Source: Kangiella profundi (GTDB taxonomy: Bacteria > Pseudomonadota > Gammaproteobacteria > Enterobacterales > Kangiellaceae). Taken from it: a stretch of DNA of 64,000 bases. The stretch is taken from the NCBI RefSeq assembly GCF_002838765.1, contig NZ_CP025120.1, forward strand, positions 1,116,001-1,180,000. The letters run 5' to 3'. Below are positions 12,860 to 16,326 of the stretch, piece by piece. The notes beneath the pieces were generated by a model, which worked only from the letters and a program-made list of their open reading frames with translations, was not told the DNA's origin and searched no databases. Made by a program: the position numbers and the translations under genes. Position 1 is the first letter of the stretch; each line of letters starts with the position of its first letter.

Positions 12860-15199
12860 TTGAGTAAAACAAAAACTAAACAATCTGCTACTCGAAAGTC
12901 TCCCCAGTCGCTGGAGTCTAAAGCGATCCTACGCAGACGTCTGAGCGAAGGCGGCATGATCCTGTTAGTTACCTTGGCTTTGTTCTTTTTGCTGGCCTTA
13001 TTGACTTATAATCCTAATGACCCGGGTTCATTTACCAATGGTAGCGGTGGTCCTATCCAAAATGCCGCTGGAAAAGGTGGTGCCTGGTTCGCTGACTTCT
13101 TTCTTCATTTATTTGGCTATTTAGCTTTCCTGATCCCTATTATTTTTGCTTACTCAGGTTATTTGCTTTACGTAGAGCGCAACATTGAACATGAGCATCC
13201 AAAAGCTTTTTGGGCAGTAAAAGGCCTGGGTTTGCTAATGGCTGTAGTCGGTGGCGCAGGACTTTGCAGCCTTCACTTTTTTGATCCTGCTATCCAGCCC
13301 AGTTACAGCTCAGGCGGGATTCTGGGCGAGTTCATTATCAGCCTGATTATTGACGGTTTAGGCCTGTATGGAACAACCTTGATTCTTTTAGCATTGTTTC
13401 TTTCAGGATTAACCTTGTTCACCGGTATTTCCTGGCTTAGAACCATGGACAAAGTAGGTGTCTGGGTTATTAAGTCATGGGGCAAATTGCTGGAATGGTA
13501 TGAAAACTTCAAAGATCGCAAGTTAGAGCAGAAGTCTGTAAAAGAGTCTGTGGTGAAACGTCAGGAGGCGTTGAAGCAGGAGAAGGTAAAAAGAGAAACG
13601 CGCAGTCCAGTGAAGATAGAGCCTAAGGTTATGCAGCCTTCGACTCCACCGAAGGCAGTGCAAAAGGCAAAGCAAAAGCCCTTGTTTGATGATATTCCAA
13701 CTGGGCCGATGCCAGTCATGGAATTGCTCGATGAACCAGAGCCACCAAAAAATCATTTTTCCGAGGAAGCTCTAGAGGCAATGTCACGCCTTGTGGAGTT
13801 AAAGCTAAAAGATTTTGGAGTCGAAGCGCAGGTCATGGAGGTACACCCTGGGCCAGTGATTACACGTTTTGAGATTGAGTTGGCTCCTGGAGTCAAAGTT
13901 AGCAAAATTTCAAACTTGGCCAAAGACTTGGCGCGCTCACTTTCGACTATTTCCGTTCGAGTTGTTGAGGTGATACCGGGAAAAACCTATGTCGGCATTG
14001 AGATTCCGAATGAGTCTCGTGAGGTTGTAAGGCTGCGCGAAGTATTGGCCTGTGATGAATTTGAAAAATCGAAATCACCTTTAAGTATGGCACTGGGTAA
14101 GGATATTGCGGGCAATCCAATCGTAGTCAATATGGCAAAAATGCCCCACTTGCTGGTAGCCGGTACTACAGGTTCCGGTAAGTCCGTCGGTGTTAATGCG
14201 ATGATTATCAGCATGCTTTATAAAGCCACGCCGGAAGATCTCCGCTTAATCATGATCGACCCAAAGATGCTTGAGCTAAGCGTATATGAAGGCATTCCAC
14301 ACCTGTTGTGTGAAGTGGTGACTGACATGAAAGACGCTGCCAATGCGTTGCGATGGTCTGTAGGTGAAATGGAACGCCGTTATCGGTTGATGTCTGCGAT
14401 GGGTGTACGAAACTTGGCAGGATTTAACAAGAAAGTGCAGGATGCGATAAAAGCGGGCGAGCCAATTAAAGATCCATTGTGGCAGCCCACGGACGGATTG
14501 GAGGAAGAACCGCCAACACTGGAAAAGCTACCTTCAATTGTTATTGTCATTGATGAACTTGCCGATATGATGATGATTGTCGGAAAGAAAGTGGAAGAGT
14601 TGATTGCACGAATTGCTCAGAAAGCACGTGCCGCGGGTATTCACTTGATTCTGGCTACTCAGCGTCCTTCGGTTGATGTTATTACCGGTTTGATTAAAGC
14701 GAATATCCCATCTCGCATTGCCTTCCAGGTGTCATCAAAAATTGATTCTAGAACCATTCTGGATCAGATGGGAGCCGAACAGCTATTAGGTATGGGTGAC
14801 ATGTTGTATCTTCCTGGTGGTTCGAATATTCCTACGCGTATCCATGGTGCCTTTGTTGATGATGATGAAGTGCACCGCGTTGTAGAAGATTGGAAAAAAC
14901 GTGGTGAACCAGAGTATCTTGATGAAGTGATAAGTGGTACCAGTGAAGTACCGGTGCCGGGTATACCGGGTATGGATGGAGCAGACGGTGATAGCGAGCA
15001 AGATGAGCTATTTGATCAGGCTGTCGCCATTGTTACCGAAACTCGAAGAGCATCTATTTCAGGCATCCAGCGTCGCTTAAAAATTGGATATAACCGAGCA
15101 GCCCGTATGGTCGAGGCTATGGAAGCGGCAGGTATTGTGTCTGAGATGGGTTCGAATGGGGCGAGGGAGGTATTAGCACCGCCGCCGCCTAAAGACTGA
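12860..15199 (+). CDS. ftsK: DNA translocase FtsK
   Basis: A 779-residue septal DNA pump that clears and aligns chromosome ends and activates XerCD at dif. The first roughly 200 residues hold four membrane spans; a short charged Lys/Pro/Gln linker follows (about 225-300). The RecA-like motor has Walker [10 protein letters not shown] with K441 and Walker [12 protein letters not shown]. The C-terminal gamma winged helix ([19 protein letters not shown]) reads KOPS. The linker is far shorter than in E. coli FtsK. The start is TTG, with AAAGGAAAG upstream; the closer ATG at 12844 runs into a stop. Confidence 0.96.
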
Positions 15200-15222
15200 T
15201 ACAGCTAGTTTGTTTGCCAATA

Positions 15223-15369
15223 CTTTGTTGTACTTAATCATTCAGTATCGTCATTTACAAAATCGTAAACTCCTCACTGAATGATTAAGTACGCCGTGTC
15301 TTGGCGGCACCACTGACGCTGGATAAATGTCCAAGTGTTGATCATACTTGGATTAACGCTCAAAGGGGC
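15223..15369. repeat. Tandem structured element, copy 1
   Basis: A roughly 147-base unit repeated once more 159 bases downstream. It opens with a perfect 17-base inverted repeat (15230-15246 with 15276-15292, sequence GTACTTAATCATTCAGT and its complement) around a 29-base loop. A second short stem follows (GCC/GGC around TGTCTT, near 15293-15308), and a third (CCAAGT/ACTTGG, about 15331-15350). No reading frame is conserved. The location is between ftsK and lolA. It could be a small RNA or a dispersed intergenic repeat. Confidence 0.8.
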
Positions 15370-15381
15370 GGGTGAGTATAG

Positions 15382-15540
15382 CTTTGTTTTTTTTAATCAT
15401 TTTGTGTCGTCATTTAAGAAGCGTAAACTCCTCACTAAATGATTAAGTACGCCGTGTCTTGGCGGTACCACTGACGCTGGATAGGTGACCAAGTGTTGAT
15501 AATAGTTGGATAGAGAACACTGTTGACGCTCAAAAGGGCA
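15382..15540. repeat. Tandem structured element, copy 2
   Basis: Homologous to copy 1 over its whole length, with scattered substitutions, a one-base deletion in the first loop and a 14-base insertion near 15510-15525. The first stem is kept (15393-15405 with 15434-15446), and one pair has changed on both sides: C15243-G15279 in copy 1 is T15402-A15437 here. The outer four bases of the left arm have become a T-run (15385-15394). The middle segment TACGCCGTGTCTTGGCGG is identical in both copies. Confidence 0.8.
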
Positions 15541-15624
15541 TGAAGCAACAGACTAGTTATTAAGGCCTAATTCAGTATTGGGCAGTTATAACGTGATTAC
15601 ATTTGACCGAATTATGGTAACGAA

Positions 15625-16326
15625 ATGATTAAAAGTATAAAGAAGCAATTTAGCCAGTTAACTGCAGCTGTCGCTTTAATCGGGTTGAGTATTGCTGCTC
15701 AAGCAGATGCGCCTCAGGAACTGGAAAAGAAATTAACTGCAATTGATAGTTTTAAAGCTGATTTCAGCCAGGTTATTACGGATGAGTTCGGCACTCTAAT
15801 CGATAAATCATCTGGCCACTTTGAGCTGAAGCGCCCACAGTTATTCCGCTGGGTCGTTGAAGAACCTTTTGAGCAGCAAATCGTTGCTGATGGCATTAAT
15901 CTTTGGCAGTTTGATATGGATATTGAGCAAATCAATGTTTCAAGTCTTGATCAAACGCTGGCTAATTCGCCAGCAGCTTTATTGAGTCAGGCACAATTAG
16001 ATGTTGCAGAAAATTATGAAGTGGCTGCAGTTAAAGGTGAGGGTGATGGCGTATTAATCTATCACCTGACGCCACGCGATCCTGATGCCTTGTACGAGGT
16101 TTTGATTTTAGAATTCCATAGCTCCGATCTGGTTGCCTTGCAAGTTAAAGACAATCTTGGCCAAGCAACACTGGTAGACTTTACCAATGTTATCATGAAC
16201 CCGGAATTTGAAGATGACCACTTCGAGTTTGTTATTCCAGAAGGCATAGATGTCATTGATAGCCGAAACTCAATTGAAGGCGCCGCACTAGAGAAAAGTG
16301 ACATTCTAGAGAAAGGTGACTTCTAA
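15625..16326 (+). CDS. lolA: Outer-membrane lipoprotein carrier protein LolA
   Basis: A 233-residue periplasmic chaperone that accepts lipoproteins from LolCDE and hands them to LolB. A signal peptide ends at IAAQADA. The mature protein shows the LolA pattern: FKADFSQ, GHFELKRPQLFRWVVEEPFEQQIVADG and LWQFDMD. It is followed after 6 bases by rarA, and the run lolA-rarA-crcB-serS reads as one operon, matching the E. coli order apart from crcB. The C-terminus is about 25 residues longer than E. coli LolA. Confidence 0.95.
   Translation: MIKSIKKQFSQLTAAVALIGLSIAAQADAPQELEKKLTAIDSFKADFSQVITDEFGTLIDKSSGHFELKRPQLFRWVVEEPFEQQIVADGINLWQFDMDIEQINVSSLDQTLANSPAALLSQAQLDVAENYEVAAVKGEGDGVLIYHLTPRDPDALYEVLILEFHSSDLVALQVKDNLGQATLVDFTNVIMNPEFEDDHFEFVIPEGIDVIDSRNSIEGAALEKSDILEKGDF

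Follow-up and report, generated by a model that had tools for sequence, protein, structure and literature searches.

ERICs have been known since 1990-91 and form the basis of a common typing PCR. De Gregorio et al. reportedly found in 2005 that the ERICs of Yersinia occur in one preferred orientation at stop codons, and a work by Zo (2011) is said, by its title, to concern the divergence of ERICs among Gammaproteobacteria. Integron attC sites are another system, in which structure is conserved over sequence, the bottom strand is the one that folds and the position is after a stop codon. According to the papers cited, ERICs possess TA termini and TA duplications (PMC2759123, PMC2229807) and insert at the 3' ends of genes with effects on mRNA that depend on orientation (PMC10969869, PMC2229807); for those of Yersinia, a ribosome-dependent exposure of an RNase E site is described (PMC2229807, PMC10969869), and the published ERIC primers give the core sequence of the element (PMC3696847). 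Further papers describe QMITE2 of Coxiella burnetii as a palindromic MITE located mostly in 3' UTRs, with an overlap of 1-10 bp with gene ends (PMC5896051, PMC10969869), Correia/NEMIS and RUP as TA-bounded MITEs of roughly 105-155 bp (PMC2229807) and REPs as repeats of 20-40 bp (PMC3733652).

The repeats analysed here lie between ftsK and lolA of Kangiella profundi, in a stretch of 64,000 nucleotides (contig NZ_CP025120.1, positions 1,116,001 to 1,180,000; the window). We put the probability at about 0.75 that the two copies in the window belong, as divergent members, to the ERIC (IRU/RU-1) family of non-autonomous mobile elements; their structure seems to be kept on the bottom strand. Three covariance models were employed, namely R1, built from Kangiella copies, R2, built from 73 matches (65 distinct), and R3, built from seven Enterobacterales ERICs, together with two sets of copies, A3 (65 distinct copies) and A4 (56 distinct copies of other taxa, mostly best-scoring matches). 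The features of the locus are as follows.

12860..15199, + strand: ftsK, whose TGA stop codon at 15197-15199 adjoins copy 1.
15200..15324, + strand: copy 1, a complete putative ERIC-family hairpin of 125 nt, imperfect, beginning at the first base 3' of the ftsK TGA.
15223..15229, + strand: left half of the internal loop, CTTTGTT (CTGCGTT in other copies), conserved.
15230..15246, + strand: left arm of the inner stem, with complementarity kept, sequence free between loci, and covariation.
15250..15273, + strand: tip, consisting of GTCA, a 5-bp stem (TTTAC/GTAAA) and CTCC, on the same plan as the E. coli ERIC.
15276..15292, + strand: right arm of the inner stem, part of a perfect 17-nt inverted repeat.
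15293..15299, + strand: right half of the internal loop, GCCGTGT, conserved.
15353..15364, + strand: TTAACGCTCAAA, probable right-end remnant of a second copy type (repeat family D4; from comparison of ftsK-lolA gaps).
15360..15482, + strand: copy 2, a degenerate putative ERIC-family copy (R1 match of 49.3 bits) whose left outer arm is not complementary.
15523..15534, + strand: TTGACGCTCAAA, second probable right-end remnant (repeat family D4; from the same gap comparison).
15625..16326, + strand: lolA, the downstream neighbour, with a match to the lolA model over its cut-off.

The FtsK profile matches ftsK with an E value of 9.4e-267, under that model's own cut-off, and the C-terminal residues of FtsK are conserved in Kangiella genomes with or without an element downstream. 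Several details first described from the sequence were recovered: two direct-repeat copies 158-159 nt apart with 91% identity across 93 nt, a 17-nt inverted repeat without mismatch in copy 1 (15230-15246/15276-15292) and a compensatory change from C15243-G15279 in copy 1 to T15402-A15437 in copy 2. Two copies by themselves are weak evidence of a compensated structure. The hairpin is present, and copy 1 in truth extends over 15200-15324, the start given by the sequence-only reading having cut the left outer arm. Its description of a tandem structured pair holds for copy 1, which is matched by R1 over positions 1-122 of 122 (123.9 bits, copy 1 being within the R1 training set) and folds better than its shuffles (z -5.43 for the sense and -6.12 for the antisense strand). 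Copy 2 is degenerate: the fold of the stretch 15382-15545 does not surpass those of its shuffles (z -0.21), and the inner stem of the copy, as read from the sequence, has Watson-Crick pairs at 13 of 17 positions, one wobble and 3 mismatches. At gathering scores, no Rfam family was found at the element site; relaxed scores gave two miRNA families there (E values of 0.11 and 0.67). Rfam families identified elsewhere in the window, all on the + strand, are a TwoAYGGAY RNA (RF01731; 51180-51254; 47.3 bits, gathering score 43), a cspA thermoregulator RNA (RF01766; 8437-8879; 86.5 bits) and a TPP riboswitch (RF00059; 56144-56273; 67.8 bits).

Conservation of the fold was assessed on a MAFFT alignment of 15 Kangiella copies with 38 pairs, the structure being derived from the same alignment, using 500 shuffles and slid controls. 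Both sides had changed in 23 of the 38 pairs, and 94.7% of cells were paired compared with 74.9% in the shuffles, of which none was as high; the same holds for double-sided cells (108 vs 31.8; 0/500). Substitutions in the stems are thus not random when more copies are aligned, covariation amounting to 0.525 vs 0.161 in shuffles (0/500 as high) and to 0.137 at most in the slid controls. Four of five measures exceeded all 500 shuffles and all slid controls; the number of further pair types was unexceptional (42 vs 38.9, with 73/500 shuffles as high). Between loci the arms share little sequence, being free but paired, and what recurs are short motifs: CTTTGTT or CTGCGTT, a tip of the form [GC]TCA-N5-loop-N5'-CT[CG]C, and GCC[GT][CT]G. 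CTCA or CTGC is found in the tip of many copies, and the internal loop of copy 1 is the TTTGTT/GCCGTG variant. A T.G pair of the internal loop is present in all 27 own-genome rows and all 56 A4 rows. By model ends, 24 of 29 copies of the genome measure 117-127 nt, the others 142, 106, 102, 101 and 82.

The pair in the window represents two of 29 dispersed copies, which R1 identified on both strands of the K. profundi genome at E <= 1 (the weakest at 2.9e-5). A blastn search with the pair gave no match in this genome outside the ftsK-lolA locus, as blastn does not join the copies because their arms are locus-specific. Covariance searches of relatives showed that the element is not absent from them: it was present in 20/20 Kangiella genomes, with 10-45 copies each (9-44 when fewer candidates were scored), and in 4/20 other genomes of the family, with 1-10 copies each (R1; at most 89-150 candidates were scored per genome, making these copy counts lower bounds). 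Using R2, and counting the starting genome in each case, the element was found in 68/184 genomes of a class sample (E <= 0.001), in 46/249 of a phylum sample (E <= 1e-4) and in 9/148 of the class of a Clostridiales MAG (E <= 1e-4); for the class and phylum samples, 14-24 candidates were scored per genome under stricter filters, so that copy counts are lower bounds and zeros do not signify absence. Clostridiales MAG HAN102, a genome of 1.6 Mb far from the usual hosts, gave 33 matches to R2 at E <= 1. The suggestion of a genus-specific repeat is hence not borne out, the element being present in many families.

A pattern scan of a named genome collection returned 115 stretches, many of them from Marinomonas and Kangiella and others from Thalassolituus, Halomonas, Salinibius, Thiomicrospira, Gallionella and Clostridiales MAGs; 28 of the 115 were given to R2 and all 28 matched. 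The 115 also include likely chance hits such as that in Chitinophaga, a genome with no R2 match. Among plasmid records, 8 of 72,556 matched a consensus-like query typed by hand, and phage records gave no match to the same query. A copy akin to the marine type (38.5 bits) is present on a plasmid of a Yersiniaceae symbiont, and the copy on Pseudomonas amygdali plasmid pCOR2250 lies inside an outer inverted repeat, beside a transposase of the IS630 family. Two similar copies also stand in tandem at another site of the K. profundi genome (G000:C1:166422 and 166622; L087/L101), and the orthologous site of K. aquimarina (L188) is likewise paired. No published report of ERICs in Kangiella, or of a strand-specific ERIC structure, was found in a literature search made largely outside subscription journals. 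Provisionally, then, the host range is wider than that reported for ERICs.

The relation to ERICs was examined in both directions. A core built from two published primers matched in 5,375/5,426 E. coli genomes, and the tip of the E. coli ERIC reads GTCA-CTTAC-TTAT-GTAAG-CTCC. On two E. coli ERIC loci, R2 aligned the tip alone, in place and weakly (11.2 bits, E 0.59). When the window and 38 element-bearing loci (36 from Kangiella, 2 from the family) were searched with R3, seven matches were obtained, the best six of which are full length and on the same strand and in the same place as independently found elements (E values of 2.6e-5, 4.6e-4, 0.0049, 0.019, 0.084 and 0.21), the seventh being a fragment elsewhere. 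Neither copy in the window was matched by R3 at E <= 10, and 32/38 element-bearing loci had no match on their element. On 53 other loci, R3 gave nine matches: six on known elements (L131, 1.5e-10; L134, 2.4e-8; L124, 1e-4; L132, 2.5e-4; L154, 0.5; L137, 1.3), two where R2 has none (L212 and L161) and one unrelated. Judged from these matches, Kangiella-type elements and ERICs are linked families, most copies lying beyond the small R3 model. The statement that no described element is known here is accordingly replaced by assignment to a divergent ERIC, the ERIC covariance model matching related elements.

Further likenesses to ERIC (IRU/RU-1) are a length near 127 bp, an imperfect palindrome, multiple copies in mostly intergenic positions, a tip of the form GTCA-N5-N4-N5'-CTCC, a GCGTT/GCCTT internal loop, TA-bounded ends in many copies and frequent sense placement at stop codons. 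From internal loop to tip, the Citrobacter ERIC measures 20 nt, equal to copy 1, and the E. coli copies have a shorter stretch. When ERIC was aligned by MAFFT with three distant copies, the halves came out of register, and this alignment was left out. Unlike ERICs, the elements described here have locus-specific arms and an alternative internal loop (CTTTGTT/GCC[GT]CG), and their hosts are not only Enterobacteriaceae and Vibrionaceae, comprising Kangiella, many other Gammaproteobacteria and some genomes of a Clostridiales class. By description, they resemble QMITE2 as palindromes at gene 3' ends, QMITE2 itself being about 190 bp with 7-9 bp direct repeats, and Correia/NEMIS and RUP in size and TA-bounded ends. 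The traits of the ERIC family are seen here as palindromes mostly of 117-127 bp, often TA-bounded, with a conserved loop and tip and with arms that are free yet paired.

The two strands of the element differ in how well they fold. With RNA parameters, the bottom strand folds better in 25/27 own-genome copies, 56/65 copies of A3, 53/56 of A4 and 7/7 ERICs, and with DNA parameters in 26/27, 60/65, 56/56 and 7/7, respectively. Selection on a sense RNA is expected to favour G.T mismatches. In the variable stems, read on the sense strand, G.T and A.C number 16 and 22 in the own genome (p 0.42) and Y.Y and R.R 36 and 21 (p 0.063), neither difference being significant; in A4, the counts are G.T 35 and A.C 55 (p 0.045), and Y.Y 69 and R.R 14 (p 6.8e-10). 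From these counts five (A3) and seven (A4) columns were omitted, namely the T.G pair, the tandem T.C/C.T columns (A4) and poorly paired outer ones. If all columns are kept, G.T exceeds A.C (53 vs 27 own, 107 vs 67 A4) because the T.G pair is present in every row, and Y.Y still exceeds R.R (61 vs 25 own, 167 vs 23 A4). A count from fixed anchors, made without fitting over the first 12 inner pairs, started from 121 distinct copies, of which 30 were dropped for want of anchors; the remaining 91 gave G.T 26 and A.C 31, and the 77 left after 14 had failed the register rule gave G.T 9 and A.C 24.

Read on the bottom strand, the Y.Y mismatches are of G.A type, and the T.G internal-loop pair, a wobble on the sense strand, becomes A.C. 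Two neighbouring columns of A4 show T.C and C.T jointly in 23/56 rows, two Watson-Crick pairs in 27 and other combinations in 6; a bottom-strand module of tandem G.A/A.G would be expected to show such a coupled exchange, and the GGAG/TGAC of the tip could form tandem G.A pairs on that strand as well. Mismatches thus favour folding of the bottom strand, clearly in other taxa and not significantly in the own genome alone.

The ends of the elements bear on how they might move. TA..TA ends with at least 6/8 complementary positions were found in 12/26 own copies and in 19/1040 random placements (L095, L101 and L105 being left out of the 29); the other 14 own copies, copy 1 among them, do not pass this rule. 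A TA duplication fits at the left end of one filled and empty pair of sites (L093 of the own genome and L304 of K. aquimarina, G001), where the right flank is not alignable and the site is poorly bounded. Together with the TA termini and duplications published for ERICs and the IS630 transposase adjoining the P. amygdali copy, such ends are what would be expected of an ERIC-family MITE that a TA-targeting DDE transposase (IS630/Tc1 type) moves in double-stranded form; its hairpin would follow incidentally from the long inverted ends, and the strand asymmetry from mutation. This account, which shares the filing under ERIC with the best explanation, is possible but on the unlikely side. The DDE_3 (IS630) profile has no match in any of 20 Kangiella genomes (5/40 in the family), and the coupled T.C/C.T exchange and the strand bias are left unexplained by it. 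As an autonomous partner, the IS630 element beside the P. amygdali copy was rejected, as the 6 kb surrounding the P. tremae copy have no annotated IS630. A Y1_Tnp match (E <= 0.001) was obtained in 7/20 Kangiella genomes; the remaining 13 carry the element and have no such match, which sets it apart from the REP/REPIN system with TnpA-REP (RAYT), to which it is similar as a dispersed palindromic DNA repeat and compared with which REPs are shorter. With the DDE_3 and Y1_Tnp profiles, no mobilising enzyme was identified in the 20 Kangiella genomes. A GTAG-tagged REP-like palindrome (GTAGGGTGCGTCG...GACGCACC) recurs beside ERIC-type copies (L084, L093 and L231).

Most copies are located at gene 3' ends in sense orientation, with the stop codon at their left end. 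Of those in the K. profundi genome, 22/29 begin at most 15 nt from the stop codon of the upstream gene (TAA or TAG in 20 of the 22), all sense and none antisense, and three of the other seven are second copies in tandem. The 5' end lies -12 to +7 nt from a stop in 47/65 copies of A3, with none 8-123 nt past one and 2/65 antisense within 12 nt, many of these rows being orthologues and so not independent. In A4, 29/56 are within 12 nt of a stop in sense, compared with 3 antisense, with shared ancestry and mostly best-scoring matches again making the counts non-independent; gene calls for placement followed a longest-ORF rule. ERIC sites were sense-at-stop in 3/8 cases (Rahnella, Pantoea and E. 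coli ybhI), the others being E. coli fbaA, Providencia, Klebsiella, Pectobacterium and Citrobacter, where the ERIC abuts a convergent gene end.

In 13 of 20 Kangiella genomes, copies stand 3' of ftsK, most of them beginning at the base that follows its stop codon, and remnants were seen in the ftsK-lolA gap of two more (G009 and G015). The copies in this gap are of two arm types, often in tandem; the type behind TTAACGCTCAAA is more complete in K. aquimarina, G010 and G012. No element was seen 3' of ftsK in five congeners (G005, G008, G011, G014 and G016), whose gaps measure 69-116 nt from the ftsK stop to the matched lolA start. In the midpoint-rooted ftsK tree, genomes carrying the element fall on either side of the root, and the element after ftsK is old within Kangiella. 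In the gap of one congener (G013, L037), an apparent extra ORF with a secreted-protein-like start was seen by eye between the element and lolA.

Comparison with K. aquimarina at 14 judged sites, those with stretches to hand (L088 being at a stretch edge), showed 13 to be filled in both species (ftsK, L082, L084, L086, L087, L090, L091, L092, L094, L096, L099, L100 and L102), L093 having no element in K. aquimarina. Ten elements were compared by blastn: four are 93.6-98.4% identical, with flanks at about 80-91%, that of L092 is 71.6% identical and the other five have no full-length alignment, though R2 finds an element at each. As read from the sequences and from R2 hits, at the L090 site of K. 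aquimarina and at the yebC site of Kangiella Bin_2 a different copy occupies the stop codon and the right part of an older copy lies downstream; the sites therefore persist and their arms change, in part at least through new insertions.

Placement and persistence could also be read at the RNA level, as a 3'-UTR element whose mRNA hairpin after the stop controls stability or processing of the upstream transcript and is kept by host selection, a reading compatible with the filing under ERIC. The sense-at-stop placement, the 13/14 sites filled in both species, the four elements more conserved than their flanks and the RNase E site of Yersinia ERICs are all in its favour. Against it, the sense RNA is the less stable strand, the variable stems show no G-U preference and five congeners have no element after ftsK; we consider it rather improbable, if tenable. 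Where a copy is sense-at-stop, its bottom strand serves the upstream gene as template and is not part of the mRNA, and a folded DNA strand is therefore favoured over a 3'-UTR RNA, at about even odds.

The preferred reading is that of a mobile DNA hairpin whose bottom strand would be under structural selection. Most likely, and again with roughly an even chance, selection may act on the folded bottom strand of the DNA as recognised by a presumed recombinase or transposase, and the placement at stop codons would reflect a target preference and not selection. Where the sequence-only reading had offered a functional RNA or a protein-bound DNA hairpin, the compensated conserved hairpin stands and the protein-bound DNA hairpin is closest to the evidence; a small RNA is not upheld. 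A broader proposal is doubtful: there may be an old superfamily of mobile hairpins across much of the Gammaproteobacteria and beyond, with ERICs as its enterobacterial part, whose members would move as a folded single-stranded bottom strand, recognised by shape by a recombinase delivering one orientation to stop codons.

It is very unlikely that the copies are integron attC sites scattered outside integrons. They share with attC the hairpin with free arms, structure kept over sequence, the fold of the bottom strand and a start often at a stop codon; unlike attC, they have no common sequence at the outer ends of own and distant copies compared by eye, and so no common R box, and their conserved sequence is central and at the tip. 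A pair of small RNAs peculiar to the ftsK-lolA gap, suggested by two structured copies in tandem, has an equally slim chance: copy 2 is degenerate and the pair belongs to a dispersed set, the variable stems show no sense G-U preference, no Rfam family reaches its gathering score here, and a consensus scan gave promoter-like sites at the level of chance (3 vs 1.9 expected, sd 1.4) and no terminator-like site. A DNA site for FtsK or chromosome processing can be dismissed as most improbable, since despite the copies and remnants following ftsK in most Kangiella genomes, similar copies adjoin yebC, prfB, an acyl-CoA dehydrogenase gene and many others, and none follows ftsK in 5/20 congeners.

For annotators, the covariance models could help to mask repeats that otherwise resemble novel non-coding RNAs. 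With these elements, the ERIC family reaches into marine Gammaproteobacteria, Pseudomonas, Gallionella and certain genomes of a class that includes a Clostridiales MAG; the structure is retained together with two short motifs, the arms vary freely, and placement at stop codons is frequent and strongly biased in orientation. Their strand-specific signature makes a mechanism involving single-stranded DNA testable. The broader proposal of a superfamily, if true, would amount to a third bacterial system of hairpin-DNA mobility beside integron cassettes and IS200/IS605-REP.
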